This document shows, one piece after another, positions 50,588-64,000 of a DNA stretch of 64,000 bases. The notes below the pieces were generated by a model. The model was not told the DNA's origin, made no database searches, and was given only the letters and a program-made list of their open reading frames with translations. The position numbers were made by a program, and so were the translations under genes. Within the stretch, counting starts at the first letter, position 1, and every line of letters begins with the position of its first letter. Origin of the DNA: Verrucomicrobia bacterium IMCC26134 (GTDB taxonomy: Bacteria; Verrucomicrobiota; Verrucomicrobiia; Opitutales; Opitutaceae). The stretch lies in NCBI GenBank assembly GCA_000972765.1, contig CP011265.1, positions 1,674,001 to 1,738,000 of the forward strand, written 5' to 3'.

Positions 50588-51469
50588 TTAAGGGGTGGCG
50601 GCTTGTTTATCCGCCGCCGCGGACCAGAGCAATGCGCGAGGTATCATGTTTTCAAGGCCGGGAGTGTTTTCAGGGTGTGGGCTTGAAATGAAAACGCGTC
50701 CTTTCCCGAAAGTGCCTATCGCTTGGGCTGGACTTCCCACCTGGATGCCCTTCGGGGTGTCATTCTCGGCGGTCTCGGTTCGGAAGGTTGAGACCGGCGT
50801 ATAGTCAGGGATGTCGTCGCGGTTAAAGGGTTTGATCACAGGGCCGTTGGCGTAGCGGACCTTGAAGGAGCCCTCCACCGGGCCGAAAAGATCGCGGCCG
50901 GCGGGGGTGAGCTCGATGTCCAGGAAGGCTTTACCACGCCTCCATTTGCTTGAAACGGTGCGCGCATCGAGGATGCCAAGGCCCCAGTCGTAGCCGGCGC
51001 AGGCGAGGTAGGCGCCGGCACAGACGCCAACGTAGCCGCCGCCGTTTTTTACAAAATCACGAATATTGGCGCGTCCGGCCTCGCCGATGGCCTTGGCCTG
51101 GGCGGAGCCGCTGCCACCCGAGAAAACCACGACATCGAAGCGGTTGGAAAGGTTGACCGTGCCTATTTCAGCGGGGGTGAGGCGGGTGACCGTTGCACCC
51201 TCGATCTGGTGTGCGCTGGCCTCGACATTGATTACGCCACCGTCGCCCGAGCCCGGGCCATCATAAAGCGCCACCCGGATCGGACGTATGGATCCGGGGC
51301 CGGCGACAATCGTTTTCAGGCCGTTAATATCGGGAGGGATTACGATGGGTTTGGCTGCAGCAGGCGTGGCCGGTTCGTCTTGGGCCTTTAGGACCTGGGC
51401 GAGTGAAAACGTCGCGGCCAGCAGGGTAAAAGGCAGGGAAAAGCGGTGGCAAAATAAAGGTCTTTTCAT
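50588..51469 (-). CDS. Exported BPL_N-type glutamine-amidotransferase-like protein
   Basis: A 293-residue protein with an N-terminal signal peptide (LPFTLLAATFSLAQVLKA) and a domain like the N-terminal part of eukaryotic biotin-protein ligase (BPL_N), a relative of class I glutamine amidotransferases. The nucleophile elbow GGYVGVCAGAYLACAG holds the Cys, GWGLGILDA-like residues read YDWGLGILDA, and FISSPHPENTP supplies a His. Family members in Planctomycetota and Verrucomicrobiota are often exported, and their activity is not established. ATG 51469 is used; an in-frame start at 51496 would spoil the signal peptide. A GAACTACGCCA motif lies 157 bases upstream. Confidence 0.8.
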   Translation of the reverse strand: MKRPLFCHRFSLPFTLLAATFSLAQVLKAQDEPATPAAAKPIVIPPDINGLKTIVAGPGSIRPIRVALYDGPGSGDGGVINVEASAHQIEGATVTRLTPAEIGTVNLSNRFDVVVFSGGSGSAQAKAIGEAGRANIRDFVKNGGGYVGVCAGAYLACAGYDWGLGILDARTVSSKWRRGKAFLDIELTPAGRDLFGPVEGSFKVRYANGPVIKPFNRDDIPDYTPVSTFRTETAENDTPKGIQVGSPAQAIGTFGKGRVFISSPHPENTPGLENMIPRALLWSAAADKQAATP

Positions 51470-51625
51470 GACGGTTAAAGGCGTGGAAAGGGTCAATTTA
51501 TGGAAACTGGGATTGGTTCAGAAAGTGGAGCGTAATGGCTGTGCCCCGCCGGCGTTCAGGAGCCTTTATGCACCGTCTAGTCGGAAGAAAAAGGTGTTTT
51601 AAGGTATCCGACGTCGCCCGCCGAG

Positions 51626-51646
51626 GGAAGGGGGGGAACTACGCCA
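51626..51646 (-). promoter_or_regulatory. G-tract plus GAACTACGCCA motif, copy B
   Basis: GGAAGGGGGGG followed by AACTACGCCA, 157 bases upstream of the BPL_N-like gene. It matches the copy at 47796 over about 25 bases with small indels. Because both copies lie at similar distances upstream of minus-strand genes for exported proteins, a shared control site is likely (inference). Confidence 0.45.
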
Positions 51647-51908
51647 TGCTGCCCCCTGCGCCGCCGTCCTAGCCGAAACCATGCCTGCTTAAAACCGGCC
51701 TGAGGCGCGGTTTCACCAGAAGGAAACTGATCCGCACCGACCTCGCGCTCTACGTGCTCATTACCGCGGCGAGCAATCGCGGTTTTTTTTGGGTGGGTAA
51801 AGCGCGAGGATGCAGGCCAAGGCGAATGGCGCATGAAAAACTCTTTCGTGAGAGGCAATTATCGCTACCACGCCAGTGATAAAGTCATCGCGAGGTAGCA
51901 CGGCGTTA

Positions 51909-52034
51909 ATTGAGGGTAGCGCGAATCGACTTCGAGGTTCTCAAAAGTAACTTTGAGGTTCACTGAAGTAACATCGGGGTTGAGCAAATTAGCTTCAGGG
52001 TTCCCCAGGGTTGATTCGAGGTTCTGGTTCGGTG
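51909..52034. repeat. Degenerate 21-base tandem repeats (about six units)
   Basis: Six consecutive 21-base units begin at 51909, 51930, 51951, 51972, 51993 and 52014. Units two and three share 17 of 21 positions; the common core is TTCGAGGTT, with AAGTAA at the unit end in the best copies. The first and last units are weaker. The period of 7 codons would give a heptad reading FEVLKSN, but stop codons interrupt every frame across the array, so it is not an intact coding repeat. Confidence 0.65.
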
Positions 52035-52257
52035 CGGGGCGGAAGTGTAGGTGTCGCGAGCTTAACAGATTTCATCGATGGGTGCGTGGATGTGCTGGCG
52101 GGGTAGAGTTTTACCCGAAGGGGTCGGACAAGGGCGGGGGGTGGGGCGCACGAGGGGCACCGGCAATTGTGCAGCGGGGGGGCGGGGCTTTCCAAACGTG
52201 CCGCACCCGCCTTCGCGCTTGTGTGGGACGTGGCATGGTAAATGATGGCTCCACGCC

Positions 52258-54705
52258 ATGTCATCCCGCGCAAACGCCATCCTGTCAGCCACTCTTGAGA
52301 CTCCCAGCTGCGGGGTGATCGAGCTTTTGCATGATTGGCGGGCGCGCAGCGTGCCCGTGCTGGTGCTCTCTGGCGGGATGCGTATGCGAACCCTGGAGCG
52401 TTATCCCACGGAGCGCTTCGCCCTGCACAGTGGTTACCACGTGCTGAAGGACGGGACGATCGAGTTTGTCTTTGATCCGGCCAATCATCCCGAACTGGAC
52501 GTCACCACCGAACGCGTGCACATCGCGGGCGAGTTCAACGGGTGGGTGGGCGCGGACAGGGCGGAGTGGGCGATGGTGCCCAAGATTCTGGAGGGCAAAC
52601 CGGTGCTCTCGTGGGTGGGGCCGCTGGACAAGATAACCGGCGTGGGGGGCGGGCCGGTGCGGTTTAAATTTGTGACGGCAAAGCATATCTGGCTGTCCGT
52701 GCCTTTGGGCACGCCAAACGCCCGGCGGGACGATGCGGGTAATTTCAACCGGGTGGTGGAGCCGGAGCGCACGGGGCTGCATCTTTTCTCCTTCGAGTTG
52801 GAGTCGCCGGCGGATCTCTCGCAGACGCTGACAGTGAGCTGGGCCTCCCGCCATGCCGGCGATGCGGTGCCATTGCATGCGGGGGCGTTTTTCTATGCCC
52901 TGCAGACGGAGCTGCCCCTCGGGGTGGATGCGCGCGCCAGCGGCACTCGATTCAGGATCTTCGCGCCGCGAGCCTCCCGGGTGGAGCTCGCGCTCTGCGC
53001 CGCTCTGGCCGAGCAGGGGAAGGCGCATCGCTATGCCCTGACGCGCCGGCAGGACGAGGACGGCGCGGCCGGCGTATGGGAGGTCACGCTGGAGGGCAAC
53101 CTGCACGGCTGGTATTACTGGTATCACGTGGACGGGCCGAAGGACGCCTTCGGTGCATTCGATCCCTCGCGGCGCGTGCTGGATCCCTATGCGGTGGCAG
53201 TGGTGGGGCGGGAAGGCCCCGGCATCATCTTCGAGCGGGCGCGACTCGGGATGGTGGGCGACGGGTTCAAGACCCCGGCCTGGCACGACCTCGTGATCGC
53301 CGAGGCCCACGTGCGCGACCTGGCGCAGTGTGCGCCGGTGACGGCGGATGACGGCCAGCGGCGCGGGTTTGCCGGGTTGAAAAAATGGGTGGAGAGCGAG
53401 GATTTCTACCTCTCGCGGCTCGGGGTGAACTGCGTCGAGCTGCAGCCCTTGCAGGAATTCGACAACCAGGCGCGCGAGGACTATCACTGGGGTTACATGA
53501 CGGTGAACTGGTTTGCCCCCGCCAGTGCCTATGCGTCGCGGCCGGAGGCGGCGACGGGCTTGCGCGAGTTGCAGGAACTGGTGCGGGCCTTCCACGAGCG
53601 AGGCATCGCGGTGATCGTCGATGTCGTCTATAATCATGTGGGCGAGCCGGCGCACCTGATGTTTCTGGACCGGCTTTACTACTTTGAGCAGGATATCTCC
53701 GGCAACCTTTCGAACTGGAGCGGTTGCGGTAACGACTACCGGGCCTCGGCGGCGATGGCGCAGCGCCTGATCATCGACAGCTGCACGCACTGGCTGAAGG
53801 TGTTTGGCGTGGATGGATTCCGCTTCGATCTGGCCGACCTGATCGGCAGGCCGGTGCTGGAAAGGGTCGAGGCCGCGCTGAAAAAGGTGAAGCCCGACGT
53901 CATCCTCATCGCCGAACCGTGGAGCTTCCGCGGGCACATCGCGGGTGAGCTGCGTGACACGGGCTGGTCGTCTTGGAACGATGGATACAGAAACTTCATG
54001 CGCGACTTCGTGCGCGGGGCGGCGCTGCCCGAGACCTTTGAATACTACCTCAAAGGCTCGCCCTGGTATTACGCCAAGTGGCCGGCACAGACCGTGAACT
54101 ACACCGAGTCGCACGACGACCGCACCTGGATCGACGTCATCACCGAGAATGGCGATGGCGACGGACACCTCCCGACGGTGAACGATCGCCGCCGCACGCA
54201 TTTGATGGCGGCGGTGCTCTTCTGCTCCATCGGCATCCCGATGGTCTCCGCCGGGCAGGATTACCTGCGGTCGAAGCACGGGGTGAACAACACCTACCTG
54301 CGCGGCGACCTCAACGCCCTCGATTACCAGCGCATACACCGCTTCCCGTCCACGCACGCCTACTTTGCGGACTGGATCGCCTTCCGCCGCTCCGAGACGG
54401 GCCACTTGTTGCGCCACTTTTCCCGCGCCACCGAAGGATTTTTTGAGTTTATACGCGGGGAAGGCCCGTCCATTGCGGTTATCTACAATGCCGATCTGAG
54501 CCAGGGGGCGGAACGCTTGCTTTTCGCCATCAATCCGGGTCTTGCCGACGCCACCATCCCCCTGTCCGCCTGGGCGATCAATGAGTGGCATCAAGTTGCC
54601 GATGCGGAGCGCTTTCTGGCGCCGGGACGTCCTGCGGGCACCCAGCGTGTGACGGAGAATCTTTTCGTGCCTGCGCTGGGCTTTGGACTCTGGCGGATGG
54701 GCTGA
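52258..54705 (+). CDS. GH13 alpha-glucan hydrolase, pullulanase/debranching type
   Basis: An 815-residue cytoplasmic enzyme (no signal peptide) acting on alpha-glucans, probably glycogen debranching. Two N-terminal beta-sandwich parts precede the barrel: one with VHIAGEFNGWVGADRAEW (about 85-200) and one with TRFRIFAPRASRVELAL (about 228-340), both CBM48-like. Barrel motifs are intact: VYNHVGE (region I), GFRFDLADLIG with the nucleophile Asp (region II, about 520), LIAEPWSF with the acid Glu (region III, about 550) and YTESHDDRTW (region IV, about 615). YHWGYMTVNW recalls the YNWGYDP sequence of type I pullulanases. The start is ATG 52258; a later ATG at 52378 is possible. Products may feed the glycolytic genes downstream. 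Confidence 0.85.
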   Translation: MSSRANAILSATLETPSCGVIELLHDWRARSVPVLVLSGGMRMRTLERYPTERFALHSGYHVLKDGTIEFVFDPANHPELDVTTERVHIAGEFNGWVGADRAEWAMVPKILEGKPVLSWVGPLDKITGVGGGPVRFKFVTAKHIWLSVPLGTPNARRDDAGNFNRVVEPERTGLHLFSFELESPADLSQTLTVSWASRHAGDAVPLHAGAFFYALQTELPLGVDARASGTRFRIFAPRASRVELALCAALAEQGKAHRYALTRRQDEDGAAGVWEVTLEGNLHGWYYWYHVDGPKDAFGAFDPSRRVLDPYAVAVVGREGPGIIFERARLGMVGDGFKTPAWHDLVIAEAHVRDLAQCAPVTADDGQRRGFAGLKKWVESEDFYLSRLGVNCVELQPLQEFDNQAREDYHWGYMTVNWFAPASAYASRPEAATGLRELQELVRAFHERGIAVIVDVVYNHVGEPAHLMFLDRLYYFEQDISGNLSNWSGCGNDYRASAAMAQRLIIDSCTHWLKVFGVDGFRFDLADLIGRPVLERVEAALKKVKPDVILIAEPWSFRGHIAGELRDTGWSSWNDGYRNFMRDFVRGAALPETFEYYLKGSPWYYAKWPAQTVNYTESHDDRTWIDVITENGDGDGHLPTVNDRRRTHLMAAVLFCSIGIPMVSAGQDYLRSKHGVNNTYLRGDLNALDYQRIHRFPSTHAYFADWIAFRRSETGHLLRHFSRATEGFFEFIRGEGPSIAVIYNADLSQGAERLLFAINPGLADATIPLSAWAINEWHQVADAERFLAPGRPAGTQRVTENLFVPALGFGLWRMG

Positions 54706-58594: not shown

Positions 58595-61500
58595 TTATAA
58601 TATCTTTATCTTGGATTTGATGGGAGTTGCTGCGCTGTAAACATTATCGCCGGATTGCTTTGCCTCGACTACGACGGTTCCGACGCCGTTAACTAAAAGG
58701 CTTCGCCCATCGGATCCGATCTGTGCAGGGCCAGACACTACGGCGTAGGTTACCGATAACTTTGAGCTGGCCGTTCCAGTTAAGGCCAGCGGCGAAGTGC
58801 TTAGTGAGGCCGAAGCGGGTAATTTGAATGTTATCTTCTGAGCAACCCGGGAGACCTTAATCGTCTTTGTTACGGTCGGTGCGGCAAGGTAGGCACCGTT
58901 TCCAGTTTGCGTAGCCTGGATCACTACGGCACCAGCACCAGTCAAGGTCAGCGTAGTGCCATTTGTGCCAAGCCTGGCCGGACCGGAGACCACGGATAGA
59001 ATCACCGGGAGCTTGGAGCTGGAGCTTGCGGTCAATGTGACCGGCGACGTGTTCATCAGTTTCGTCGCGGGTGGGGCGAAGGTGATGGACTGTGTGGCCT
59101 TTGACACCGTGAAGGAACGATCTACAGGCGCGGCGGAGCTGTATTTCGTGTCGCCTGCTTGAGAAGCACGAACGGTTACTATGCCAGCACCCGTGAGCGT
59201 AATCATATTACCATTGATCGTCGCCGGACCGGAGACAATGGAGAAGGTTGTGGCGAGCTTACTGCTGGACGTAGCTTTAACGACGAATGGCGTGGCACTG
59301 TAAACTTTTGTAGTCGGAGCGGCGAAGGTGATCGTCTGATCTAATCCGCGAACGACCAGCGTTCCCGTGGAGGAACCCTGGTAGAGATTGTCGCTAATCG
59401 TGCCGACTACGGTGTAAATGCCTGCTGCACTGGGCGCAGTCAGACTACCGCCATAAGTTAAGGTGACCGCGAGTCCGGTTGGTATCGTCGTGGCAGTCGC
59501 TGAGCGCGCCGTGCCGGTGTAGGATTGGTTAAGGCCGCCGAGTGTAACCTTCGCGATGGTCTTTCCGACCGTGAAGCTTTGTTCCACTGAGGTGGCGGCG
59601 GTGTAGTTGGAATCGCCTGATTGCGCAGCACGCACGACTACGGTGCCGACTCCGGTGAGCGACACGGTGTTACCGTCGATAGTAGCCGGACCGGAAACGA
59701 TGCTGAAGGCCGGGTTCAAGCCGCTGCTCGCGGTCACGCTCAGCGTAAACGGTGCATCTCCATAGGTTTTGGCTGGCAGGACGCCAAAGATGATCGTCTG
59801 CGAGCCTGGGGTAACGGTGAAGCTTTGTTCCACCGAGGTGGCGGCGTTGTAGTTGGCGTCGCCAGCCTGTTCCGCCCGCACCACCACTGAGCCCACGCCC
59901 GTGATCGTCACGGTTTTGCCGCTGAGCGTCGCTGGCCCGGAAACGATGCTAAAGGTCGGACTCAGGCCGCTGCTAGCCGTCGCGCTCAAAGTGAACGGTG
60001 CATCTCCGTAAGTTTTGCCCGGCAGGGCATCAAAGGTGATCGTCTGCGCCGCCTGAATTTTGCTGGTGACGATGCCAGCGGCGTTGCGCACGCGCACGCT
60101 GTAGCCGTTAAGGTCGGCGACGCTGGCAACCGTTATTGTGTGCCGGGCGGAGGTAGCTTCCCCAATGGGGAAACCGTCTTTGAACCACTGATAGGACAGA
60201 TCGCTACCGGTTGCGGTTACGGAAAGCGTCGCCGACGCTCCTACTTGCGCGAGCGAGGCGGGGTCCGTGATGACCGGAGCCGTCGTTACCACCTGACTGC
60301 GGGTGCGATGGATAGCGAGTCCCTCCCAGAAACTTTTTCTCGAATAATACCCAACCACGAAACCATCGAGTAGGGCGTTGGGCTTGCTCCTCATAAATTC
60401 GAAGGGCGCCAGACTATCAAAGTCATCTCTGAATCCAACGAACACACTTGGGTCGGCGACGAGTTGGCCCGTAGCGAGGGAACGAATGCCGTCGCCAGTG
60501 TTAAAATATCGGGAATCTATGACCCATTCTAATCTGTTATCTGACGCGATGTATTCATCCTCTACGCTCCACCTCATTGTAAACTGGGCGCCATTCCAGT
60601 CGAGAAGGGCATAGCTTGTTGTCTCGTTCATTGTGTAGTAATCCGCGACTGAGTATCTAACGATGATGAACTTTTCGTCAGCCTCCAGACCTGGGGCGAC
60701 GGCTCCCTCGCTATATCCGATGACATCAAATTCGCGCTGTGATCCGTTGATTACGCCCAAGTCTTCCCCGTCCAAAAGAGAGGCGACCAACACCGAGGTG
60801 ACGGCTGAGGGTGCGACAACCTTGAGTTGAGCGTTTGCTCCGAGGGTAAACAGACGAGGCGGCAAATCAGCCATGCTGCTTCCGGTTATTGAGTAAAACC
60901 CATTCAGGATCGCCGTCTTATCTTCGCTATTCTTTATCGTTGGACTTGGGTCGATCACCACAGCGCCCGTTGTGTTCGAGAAAATACGTCCTGCGAACTG
61001 CCAGTGTGCATCGCTCAAGAGTGTGATGGAGAAATTCAAAGCGCCGTAGTTGGTGAGGTCTTTTGTCCAAAGCACGGACCAAGCACCCCCATCCCAGCGA
61101 AGCGCCTTGGCCGTGGTTGCTCCGTCGCCCACAATTACCGTGGCGGTGTTGGTAAACCCGGTGGGGGCGTAGCCGCTGGCGGGGAGGGCAACTCGACAAT
61201 CAAAGCCTGCCACGGCGTTAAGTTCTGCCCTCGAGTGCCAGCTCACTACTCCGGTCGCACGACAAGTAAGGAGCCCACTTAAGGAATCGTGAGCATAGCC
61301 TCCTGGTATCGCGATTGTGCCGCGACCACCTATTAGGTCAGCCGTGACGCCAGTGACTGCCCCAGTGACTTGGCCCGTGGATTGGGAAATGAGTTGGCTG
61401 CCATAGAGCAATACGTCGGAGCCGAGGAGCACGGCCTCCCCAAGCGGGTCATTCGCCAGCCTGCTCTTTTCCCAAGCCTTGATCCAGCCGCTGGTGGTGG

Positions 61501-64000
61501 TGAAATTGAGGCGTGCGAGGCGGTAGGTGCTATCGTCTTGGGCAGTGCTCACGACCACGACGTAGGGCGCTGGGGATGCGAGGCCGGGGAAGGTGTCATT
61601 TCGAGCGTGCGGCACCACACCGATCACCTCAAAGCCAGCAGCGGTGGACCAGTCGGTTGCTTGCACTTCCTCGAAAAGAAGGTTGGCACCGCGACCACCA
61701 AGGGTGGCTGTTTCATCGAGCTGGCCGGGGGTTATGCCTGAAACGATCCCCGCAGTGAGCAAGCCATCCAGCAAGCCCGGCCCGGCGTTTACAGCTGCAG
61801 CTGTGTTTGCCGGCAGATTGGCTCGAAGGTCAAAAGGCTGGGCAGCGAAGAAGGACGCCAGATTCAGCTTGGTGCCGAGCGGCACTCCGGGCACGTGATA
61901 ACGGGCCGCGAGATCGTCGAAGCTCGTCGGGCTCGACAAGGCCGCAAGGAAGCGGTCGAGGCCGGTGCTGATTTCAGCCTGGGTATCGGCCAGCATGGTC
62001 GGCGTCAGCACAGGATCGATGCTTAGCAAATATGACCCTCCGCCTACGGGCGCGGGGCGGCTCCAGAGCGCGGTCTCGACGCCGCGATAGTGGGCGGCCG
62101 CTTGCTGGATAAGCGCCTTAGCCTGGGCGCGGTCGGTCGGACTTGAGGCGGCTAGGGCACTCAAGAGCGTGGGGTGACTCTTAAGCAGAGTATCCACGGG
62201 CTCCGGGTCGAAGCCATGTTCAGTAGCATTAGGAAAAGCGGCCGCCAACACTGAGTCGATGATATCGCCATTAGTGAGATCCACGCCGAAGTCGTAGCTG
62301 TCACTCAGCAACCGCACGGCTTGGAACAACTTGATCGCTGCTTTGATCATTTCGAGGTCAGGGTGGGCGAGGACGATGTCTTGCATGCTGCCGACATCGG
62401 CGCCGGCGAAGCGGATCTCGGCGGAGGCGGGGATGGCATCGAGATCGGCGAGGAAGGTCGCGAGCACGGCCACGTCCTGGGCTTTGAGAAACGCAAAGAC
62501 ATCGGCGAGATTGGCGCCCGCCTTGAAGCGAGGGACGTTATACCCCTTCTGGCCAGCGATCACCTGCACGCTGGCTGGCAGGTTGCCGACCACAGTGACG
62601 CGCAGCGGGTTGTAAGCGTATTCGAAATGCAACAAAGCGCTCTTGTGGGGAGGCAGCTGAAGGGTCACATTGCCCTGTGCGTCCATGACGCTCGGATCAC
62701 CGAGACGGCGTTCAAGTTGATCCTGTGACAGTTGTATAGCGTCACTCCAGTTCCCGGTGAAGGCCGAGCCGTCGGGTTGATCAAGCTTCAGGGTGAGCGT
62801 TACGCTGGCTGCGCTCTGATTATTGAAGGCAATACACGCTGATTCGTAGTCGACCACCTGCCAGCTGTTGCCGTTTTGCACCCAATTGCCGGGCGTGACG
62901 TGGTATTTGTTGGGAGATTGGATCTGGGGATTGCCCAAGGCGAAATCCGCGGGCTCCACGCGGGTGGCCCCGAGTTTGTCTTTTAGAAACGCGGGGGTCG
63001 AGGTGTCGGCCAAGATACCGAAGCGCGCTGCGCTGCGAAGCAGGCGGGCGAGCGGCACATCAAGGGCGGCGGGATTGGCGGTGATGTAGGCATCGAGCAA
63101 AGTCTTCGCCTGATTAAAAGCGTAGCCATAGAGCAGGTCGTAAGCATCGGCGGCCTTGGCCAGAGAGGTGGGCAGAGTGACCGCGAGCACCGCTGGCGAA
63201 GAAGTGACCGTGCCGAGGCTGTTGGTCACTTTTACCGTGTAGGAACCGGTGTCGTAGGTATTCGCCACGTTGAGCGCATAGCTGGCAGCGGTCGCACCGG
63301 GGATGGCCTCGCCGTTGAGATACCATTGGAAATAAAGGGGGCTCCCCAAGGCTTTGACCGAAAAGGTGACGCCTTGACCGATGGCGATCGTGGTGGCGGC
63401 GGGAGGGGTGGTGACCTGTGGAGCCGCCAAGGTGATTAAGGCGGCGGTGTGATACCCGCCGGCGGCAATCGCGGCAACGCCCTCCAAGTAGGGGACGGTG
63501 GTTTGGCCGTAGCTATTGTCGCCCCAAGCGACGACGGTGCCGTCTGCCTTCAGCGCCACCGTGTGGGAGGAGCCTGCGGAGATTGCCATCACGTTGCTGA
63601 GGCCGTCGGGGACGGTGGTTTGGCCCTGGTAGTTATAGCCCCAGGCGACGACGGTGCCGTCTGCCTTCAGAGCGGCCGTATGCGAACCGCCGGCGGAGAT
63701 GGCGACCACGTTGCTGAGGCCCTCGGGGATGGTGGTTTGGCCTGCCCAGTTATATCCCCAAGCGACGACGGTGCCGTCTGCCTTCAGCGCGGCCGTATGC
63801 GAATCGCCGGCGGAGATGGCGACCACGTTGCTGAGGCCCTCGGGGATGGTGGTCTGGCCCTGGTAGTTATAGCCCCAAGCGACGACGGTGCCGTCTGCCT
63901 TCAGCGCGACGGTGAAGGCGGAGCCGTCGGAGATCGCGACCACGTTGCTGAGGCCCTCGGGGATGGTGGTTTGGCCAGCCCAGCTATCGCCCCAAGCGAC
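58595..64000 (-). CDS. Giant RCC1/Ig/MBG repeat protein, C-terminal part
   Basis: About 1800 residues are seen; the frame is open through base 64000, so the start and probably a signal peptide lie outside. Order from the visible N-terminal side: five RCC1-like repeats of 39 residues (GTVVAWGYNYQGQTTIPEGL, NVVAISAG, HTAALKAD); an Ig-like domain (YFQWYLNGEAIPGATAA type); a long middle region without recognised family, partly helical (AYDLLYGYAFNQAKTLLDAY); a beta-propeller-like part; a second Ig-like domain (LSYQWFKDGFPIG); and a tail of five MBG-like repeats (YGDAPFTLSATASSGLSPTF, FSIVSGPATI) plus one bacterial Ig-like unit. It ends in IKSKIKIL with no sorting signal. A very large extracellular or surface protein is likely; function unknown. 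Confidence 0.82.
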   Translation of the reverse strand, partial: VAWGDSWAGQTTIPEGLSNVVAISDGSAFTVALKADGTVVAWGYNYQGQTTIPEGLSNVVAISAGDSHTAALKADGTVVAWGYNWAGQTTIPEGLSNVVAISAGGSHTAALKADGTVVAWGYNYQGQTTVPDGLSNVMAISAGSSHTVALKADGTVVAWGDNSYGQTTVPYLEGVAAIAAGGYHTAALITLAAPQVTTPPAATTIAIGQGVTFSVKALGSPLYFQWYLNGEAIPGATAASYALNVANTYDTGSYTVKVTNSLGTVTSSPAVLAVTLPTSLAKAADAYDLLYGYAFNQAKTLLDAYITANPAALDVPLARLLRSAARFGILADTSTPAFLKDKLGATRVEPADFALGNPQIQSPNKYHVTPGNWVQNGNSWQVVDYESACIAFNNQSAASVTLTLKLDQPDGSAFTGNWSDAIQLSQDQLERRLGDPSVMDAQGNVTLQLPPHKSALLHFEYAYNPLRVTVVGNLPASVQVIAGQKGYNVPRFKAGANLADVFAFLKAQDVAVLATFLADLDAIPASAEIRFAGADVGSMQDIVLAHPDLEMIKAAIKLFQAVRLLSDSYDFGVDLTNGDIIDSVLAAAFPNATEHGFDPEPVDTLLKSHPTLLSALAASSPTDRAQAKALIQQAAAHYRGVETALWSRPAPVGGGSYLLSIDPVLTPTMLADTQAEISTGLDRFLAALSSPTSFDDLAARYHVPGVPLGTKLNLASFFAAQPFDLRANLPANTAAAVNAGPGLLDGLLTAGIVSGITPGQLDETATLGGRGANLLFEEVQATDWSTAAGFEVIGVVPHARNDTFPGLASPAPYVVVVSTAQDDSTYRLARLNFTTTSGWIKAWEKSRLANDPLGEAVLLGSDVLLYGSQLISQSTGQVTGAVTGVTADLIGGRGTIAIPGGYAHDSLSGLLTCRATGVVSWHSRAELNAVAGFDCRVALPASGYAPTGFTNTATVIVGDGATTAKALRWDGGAWSVLWTKDLTNYGALNFSITLLSDAHWQFAGRIFSNTTGAVVIDPSPTIKNSEDKTAILNGFYSITGSSMADLPPRLFTLGANAQLKVVAPSAVTSVLVASLLDGEDLGVINGSQREFDVIGYSEGAVAPGLEADEKFIIVRYSVADYYTMNETTSYALLDWNGAQFTMRWSVEDEYIASDNRLEWVIDSRYFNTGDGIRSLATGQLVADPSVFVGFRDDFDSLAPFEFMRSKPNALLDGFVVGYYSRKSFWEGLAIHRTRSQVVTTAPVITDPASLAQVGASATLSVTATGSDLSYQWFKDGFPIGEATSARHTITVASVADLNGYSVRVRNAAGIVTSKIQAAQTITFDALPGKTYGDAPFTLSATASSGLSPTFSIVSGPATLSGKTVTITGVGSVVVRAEQAGDANYNAATSVEQSFTVTPGSQTIIFGVLPAKTYGDAPFTLSVTASSGLNPAFSIVSGPATIDGNTVSLTGVGTVVVRAAQSGDSNYTAATSVEQSFTVGKTIAKVTLGGLNQSYTGTARSATATTIPTGLAVTLTYGGSLTAPSAAGIYTVVGTISDNLYQGSSTGTLVVRGLDQTITFAAPTTKVYSATPFVVKATSSSKLATTFSIVSGPATINGNMITLTGAGIVTVRASQAGDTKYSSAAPVDRSFTVSKATQSITFAPPATKLMNTSPVTLTASSSSKLPVILSVVSGPARLGTNGTTLTLTGAGAVVIQATQTGNGAYLAAPTVTKTIKVSRVAQKITFKLPASASLSTSPLALTGTASSKLSVTYAVVSGPAQIGSDGRSLLVNGVGTVVVEAKQSGDNVYSAATPIKSKIKIL
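63480..64000. repeat. 117-base tandem repeats encoding RCC1-like units
   Basis: Near-identical 117-base units recur with GGTGGT(T/C)TGGCC at about 63495, 63612, 63729, 63846 and 63963. The second to fourth differ at few positions, suggesting recent expansion or gene conversion. The array continues beyond the window. Confidence 0.85.

Follow-up and report, generated by a model that had tools for sequence, protein, structure and literature searches.

The 21-bp repeats that lie upstream of a GH13 gene in Verrucomicrobia bacterium IMCC26134 form a tandem array, here called A1, in which each repeat unit consists of an imperfect palindrome of 20 bp and one extra base. The same genome holds a second array (A2), and two further arrays (B1 and B2) with the same period and dyad are present in a genome of a different phylum, Acidobacteriota, so that four arrays are known, two in each of two genomes. 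In these arrays the constraint acts at the level of sequence rather than of pairing. A1 may be a partly worn member of an intergenic family of arrays of putative sites for a protein that would bind as a dimer and cooperatively; this is the reading we tentatively prefer, at a probability that falls slightly short of even. The window analysed here is the whole stretch of 64,000 nucleotides at positions 1674001-1738000 of the source genome, which is a single contig of 4.0 Mb.

Array A1 and a second array in the same genome

A1 is located in a 761-bp intergenic stretch (51497-52257) between a BPL_N/ThuA-like gene and a GH13/CBM48 gene (Table 1). A sequence-only reading of this DNA had described six units keeping an exact 21-base period upstream of the GH13 gene. 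Both points hold: the units start at 51910, 51931, 51952, 51973, 51994 and 52015 with no indels, and the ATG of the GH13 gene, at 52258, is downstream of the array. A seventh, weak unit starts at 51887. Over 51909-52034, identity is 60/105 at a lag of 21, 42/84 at a lag of 42 and 34/63 at a lag of 63, and a 7-bp sub-period is absent (lag-7 identity, 31/119). The best periodicity in 51497-52257 has z = 7.18, compared with a maximum of 5.55 in 2000 dinucleotide-preserving shuffles. TRF scores 2.5 copies in A1 (51929-51981, score 64), a low count because the outer units are worn. An inverted repeat, GCTACC...GGTAGC, at 51850-51905 immediately to the left of A1 overlaps the worn first unit. The window also has two long tandem repeats that are likely to be inside repeat proteins, one of 246 bp x 1.9 copies (59571-60048) and one of 117 bp x 4.4 copies (63491-64000) that runs off the window.

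Table 1. Features at and around array A1 (window positions) and the related arrays.
Feature	Location	Strand	Remarks
Left neighbour gene	50588..51496	-	BPL_N/ThuA-like glutamine-amidotransferase-type, divergent from GH13; BPL_N match 4e-13
Terminator-like hairpin then T run	51763..51790	+	left of A1; 1 found vs 1.2 expected in shuffles
Stop-to-stop open frame	51868..52071	-	68 codons; no convincing start; no Pfam match; judged not a gene
Array A1	51887..52033	.	seven 21-bp units in register; no indel; outer units (51887, 51908, 52013) worn
Best-kept core of A1	51929..52012	.	four units of the form ACTTYGAGGTTC-C-TGAAGTA; imperfect palindromes centred on GG-TT-CC
Right neighbour gene	52258..54705	+	GH13 with CBM48; CBM48 and alpha-amylase domains matched
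Array A2	about 706640-706860 of own genome		ten units, two of them 22 bp; mismatch search and model R1
Array B1	L102, Acidobacteria gp4 MAG		15 units, exact 21-bp period; consensus close to ACTTTnGGGTWCCCnAAAGT-n
Array B2	same Acidobacteria gp4 MAG as B1		12 units in register; model R2, E 1.0e-10

A search of the genome for further periodic arrays, which the sequence-only reading had proposed as a check, turned up exactly one, the 10-unit A2, by both a mismatch search and the sequence-only model R1. A2 is about 1 Mb away from A1. It is flanked by a gene for a gspE-type ATPase and by one encoding a secreted Ig-domain protein, which by eye looks like a pectate lyase. In a periodicity scan of 469 kb of the genome (the window, 5 kb around A2 and 20 samples of 20 kb each), z reached at least 6 in 15 stretches, of which 12 have an open frame; the three that have none are A1, A2 and one stretch of period 56. 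Sampled GC skew changes sign at about 1.6-1.8 Mb, and the window is probably near the replication terminus. A tie between A1 and the terminus was considered and rejected, as a finer GC-skew profile has no clear turn at A1 and A2 is 1 Mb off.

A palindromic unit of two helical turns

When the units are phased as ACTTCGAGG-TT-CTCAAAAGT-A, a dyad becomes visible, each unit being an imperfect 20-bp inverted repeat followed by one base, with the overall form ACTTTnGGGTWCCCnAAAGT-n. The earlier reading did not note this dyad, and had regarded an exact multiple of three as odd for non-coding DNA. The palindromic unit alters the meaning of the number: 21 is 3 x 7, but 21 bp is also the length of two B-DNA turns, so that a period divisible by three need not mean coding. 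Successive units are spaced by exactly 21 bp across the 7 units of A1, the 15 of B1 and the 12 of B2, and by 21 bp with two exceptions of 22 bp in A2.

In 45 units from the four arrays (these took in 14 units of B2, the last ones past its clear end, and later analyses used 12), the per-position information profile is mirrored about the dyad with r = 0.83, and no other of the 21 axes does better. The mirrored columns are without covariation: Watson-Crick pairs number 156/279 against 156.8 expected in the 31 units of A1, A2 and B1. Dyad-mirrored information combined with a lack of covariation points to a symmetry in the sequence itself, such as a dimer would recognise, and not to one of pairing, as a hairpin would have.

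The kinship of the units is consistent with such a site. Units of B1 and B2 are identical to each other at 0.597 of positions in the forward orientation and 0.621 when flipped, and the values within these arrays are 0.604 and 0.608; identity between A1 and A2 is 0.552, and it is 0.524 within A1 and 0.607 within A2. Identity between arrays is thus about that within arrays, which, with the dyad-symmetric information, the lack of a codon-position signal and the missing covariation, favours putative dimer sites over a heptad gene relic or a hairpin RNA. Unit identity drops little with distance along an array. Adjacent units resemble each other slightly more than other units do in A2 (p 0.04) and in B1 (p 0.006), an excess that is not significant in A1 (p 0.13) and B2 (p 0.21); the excess in A2 and B1 implies some history of tandem duplication and counts against a binding-site reading. 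The flanks beyond the arrays are not common to them. On the whole the units look like draws from a single motif with a trace of tandem duplication. In addition, both arrays of each genome have one core variant, GGTTCC in one genome and GGGTACCC in the other, as would be expected if one trans-acting reader served both arrays of a genome.

Related arrays in Acidobacteriota and their distribution

A pattern derived from A1 and A2, with 20 fixed bases within about 27, was run over the genome_contigs collection (257 Gb) and gave two matches, one of which (L101) is due to chance and the other of which is in a contig of an Acidobacteria gp4 MAG (L102), where it falls inside B1. A stricter earlier pattern had given zero matches. 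These scans required exact GGTTCC-type cores, and arrays of the GGTACC type were outside their reach. B2 was found in the same MAG by a model trained on A1, A2 and B1 (R2), and hence lay outside the training set. In the reverse direction, a sequence-only model built from the Acidobacteriota arrays alone (R3) gave 7 matches at E <= 1 when run over 504 kb of the source genome, and every one of them is within A1 or A2, the best E values being 3.3e-7 and 2.3e-6; in A1 it matches 51929-51979 (26.3 bits, E 2.3e-6) and, on the other strand, 51929-51980.

Carriers other than these two genomes did not emerge. R1 found none in 252 family and 387 phylum genomes, the own genome being counted in both sets. 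R2 listed three of 387 Verrucomicrobiota genomes at E <= 0.01, and the two others were rejected, not being arrays of the A1/A2 kind. Of 396 Acidobacteriota genomes, R2 gave two at E <= 0.001, the carrier of B1 and B2 and a genome (G845) that was rejected as a second carrier on account of its 7/14-bp repeat. Weak model matches in G845, G268 and G453 proved on inspection not to be 21-bp palindromic arrays. These large genome searches used strict filters with 13-25 candidates scored per genome, and may have missed other carriers. No such array was found in the viral contigs, plasmids and phages searched, the sole viral pattern match (L103) being due to chance, and neither the intergenic DNA of the window nor the array DNA had a match in plasmids and phages. 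In a literature search, judged from listings, no publication was recognised as describing an array of the A1 type. A control pattern, TTGGAGYTT-N12-TTGGAGYTT (backward), had many matches in some family relatives, for example G116 (33 and 35), G027 and G164; several of these look like 7-bp tandem repeats, and a separate repeat family seems to be active in the family.

Among relatives, compared with one genome per species, the GH13 gene is present in 14 of 15 genomes of the genus, own included, and at the 13 other congeneric GH13 loci A1 is absent, the best upstream periodicity never being 21 bp. Homologous anchors to the left and right could be placed in one relative only (G191); it has the left neighbour of A1, and its anchors are about 325 bp apart, as against 859 bp in the source genome. 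Downstream of gspE, the locus of A2, seven relatives have no 21-bp array. The sequence-only reading had looked to further arrays and to conservation in sister strains; the former exist, and the congeneric species are without A1.

Gene contexts of the arrays

The gene contexts are mixed. A1 lies between divergent genes and A2 and B1 between co-directional ones, and B2 has a kinase-like gene remnant on one side and a convergent radical-SAM gene on the other. The remnant (L154, 2920-3320) consists of a kinase/TPR-like N-terminal fragment and a C-terminal end in different frames. None of A2, B1 and B2 adjoins a GH13 gene, and the position of A1 upstream of one therefore looks incidental. No gene is common to the neighbourhoods of the two genomes (20 kb around A2, B1 and B2; 32 kb around A1) except the array peptides themselves. 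With contexts so mixed and no common neighbour, the arrays are unlikely to share a role as promoter operators or as terminators.

A small protein is encoded beside B1 (L102, 3094-3459), and it forms a family with a protein of a Kovacikia plasmid (L124, 4001-4339; 39.8% identity). The two have a C-terminal (Y/H)GxDSxEYxxAGGxRxS motif, no NCBIfam match and a sub-threshold match to Pfam Phage_scaffold. Homologues of the small protein were not found in phages or viral contigs. As a partner of the array it was rejected and taken as incidental, the record of its Kovacikia plasmid homologue being without an array by R2. The Kovacikia minuta plasmid carries, at about 4943-5200 of L124, tandem repeats with a period of 41 bp, or about four turns of the helix, whose core is palindromic and CCCAATTTGGG-like.

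Possible origins and roles of the arrays

How might such arrays work? Protein binding, its dimeric and cooperative nature and the role of the resulting patch are what we infer from the pattern of the arrays. As each 20-bp two-fold-symmetric site is followed by one free base, successive sites would face the same side of the helix at a distance of two turns. Each site would take one dimeric protein, and neighbouring dimers would be in contact, so that 6 to 15 sites could be coated cooperatively into one nucleoprotein patch. Single sites would then be free to degenerate while the whole patch persists. The patch might titrate a regulator or serve local chromosome organisation; the mixed gene contexts make control of promoters less likely.

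The main rival to a cooperatively bound array, and a serious one, is a palindromic satellite, selfish or neutral, horizontally spread or ancient, without a function for the cell, which expands by unequal recombination and is now being worn down; we regard it as possible though doubtful. A satellite agrees with the very patchy distribution (of the genomes searched, the own one and a single one of Acidobacteriota), with the shorter anchor gap in G191, with the slight excess likeness of adjacent units in A2 and B1 and with the badly worn outer units of A1. On the other hand, the small decay of identity with lag, the likeness of units between arrays, which equals that within them, and the dyad constraint would be unexpected unless the motif itself is the copied unit, and three arrays with 34 units in all keep the exact 21-bp spacing although the units have diverged by about 40%. 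The sequence-only reading had itself offered a satellite kept for other reasons, which is closer to the evidence than its other suggestion, a relic of a heptad-repeat gene: further arrays speak for it, and the congeneric species without A1 speak against it. The likeness across phyla might also be a convergence, short palindromic arrays having arisen independently and come to notice only because 257 Gb were scanned. The scan pattern was after all built from A1 and A2, and two of its matches, in L101 and the viral L103, are due to chance. Against this, the pattern fixes 20 bases in about 27, the L102 match falls inside a 15-unit array of the same period and dyad, and the pattern had no part in picking out B2, the other array of the same MAG. 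We hold convergence to be very improbable.

Another reading is a structured RNA or a cruciform, the palindromic units acting as hairpins in a transcript or in single-stranded DNA. In its favour, folding energies are far below those of shuffles in B1 (z -11.9), B2 (z -13.4) and A2 (z -6.2). This strong folding is accounted for by the palindromic consensus, and A1 folds no better than shuffles (z -1.06). Furthermore, covariation is absent within the 31 units of A1, A2 and B1, the units do not pair along any array axis (best p 0.21), and Rfam gives no match at E <= 1 in 51000-53000, 2 kb around A1. The structured-RNA or cruciform reading is already weakened by these results and appears improbable. 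As for coding, stops had been said to interrupt all frames, which is not the case: on the minus strand a frame runs open from 52071 to 51868 through the whole of A1. A frame of 98 codons, from a TTG, is present in A2. The arrays could in principle be relics of a gene for a heptad-repeat protein on the minus strand, with the heptad N-L-K-V-T-x-G, or G-Y-P-K-V-T-L in the Acidobacteriota arrays. On the minus strand the heptad frame is free of stops in A1, in A2 with the 22-bp units trimmed, and in B2, and has one stop in B1, making 1 stop in four arrays against about 4.9 expected after within-column shuffling (0, 0, 1 and 0 in A1, A2, B1 and B2, against about 0.6, 0.6, 2.7 and 1.0). This mild deficit is a weak point in favour of coding; against coding, the consensus sequence avoids stops by itself. 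Information is flat over codon positions (0.79, 0.76 and 0.82 bits; 45 units, four arrays), conservation mirrors across the dyad, and owing to the dyad both strands encode an almost identical peptide. The two 22-bp units of A2 shift the frame relative to the motif, and no single frame holds the heptad phase. The only starts inside the A1 minus frame are TTG 51987, GTG 51963 and ATG 51888, none of them convincing. The array frames of A1, A2 and B2 have no Pfam match above cut-off, and the array peptides have no plasmid match; their repeat matches in phages and in de novo designed proteins are weak. A heptad-repeat gene relic is accordingly not favoured, and its chance is quite small.

Comparison with known systems

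Tandem sites of about 20-22 bp, phased by two turns and read cooperatively by a protein, are familiar from plasmid iterons and partition-site arrays such as the R6K iterons and pSK41 parC. A1, B1 and B2 share with these the tandem sites of that length at helical phasing. They differ in being palindromic and degenerate and, in the own genome, chromosomal, and in that no replication or partition gene was recognised as a common neighbour when the neighbourhoods were compared for common genes. Tandem operators of the ArgR type consist of 18-bp palindromic boxes with 3-bp spacers, that is, 21 bp from centre to centre. Palindromic sites and centre-to-centre spacing are alike in the two cases, whereas ArgR operators have two boxes of another consensus at promoters and the present arrays have 6-15 sites in mixed contexts. 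Heptameric short tandem repeats (STRR-like), which occur in some relatives, resemble the present arrays in being non-coding and of short period; A1, however, is without a 7-bp sub-period. CRISPR arrays resemble A1 and its relatives as regularly spaced palindromic repeats, but the present units abut without spacers and are degenerate, with a mean pairwise identity within arrays of 0.52-0.61.

REP/BIME repeats are palindromes tagged with GTAG and CGTC (PMC3733652), which are abundant in Opitutus terrae, a species that the same paper assigns to Verrucomicrobia. As short extragenic palindromes, sometimes clustered (PMC3733652), they have a likeness to the arrays. The arrays differ from them in that the tag tetranucleotide is missing, the period is fixed at 21 bp, and a genome has two arrays where REP repeats would be scattered in many copies. 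In the array units GTAG occurs on either strand in 3/44 and CGTC in 1/44, and a high dispersed copy number of the REP kind was not seen, R1 and R2 finding two arrays in the own genome. Membership in REP/BIME was rejected on tags and copy number.

Implications

The arrays might represent a previously undescribed class of chromosomal cis-element that crosses phyla, with few arrays of 21-bp-phased palindromic sites per genome (here two) and one putative protein that would polymerise along them into a nucleoprotein patch, the consensus drifting in step in all arrays of a genome; we consider this broader proposal rather unlikely. Whatever their role, the arrays illustrate that a non-coding period divisible by three need not signal lost coding, since 21 bp also corresponds to two turns of the helix. 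Were the arrays bound, they would offer a ready probe for a DNA-binding protein that reads the same site in Verrucomicrobiota and Acidobacteriota, and would be a natural case of helical phasing held over dozens of drifting sites.
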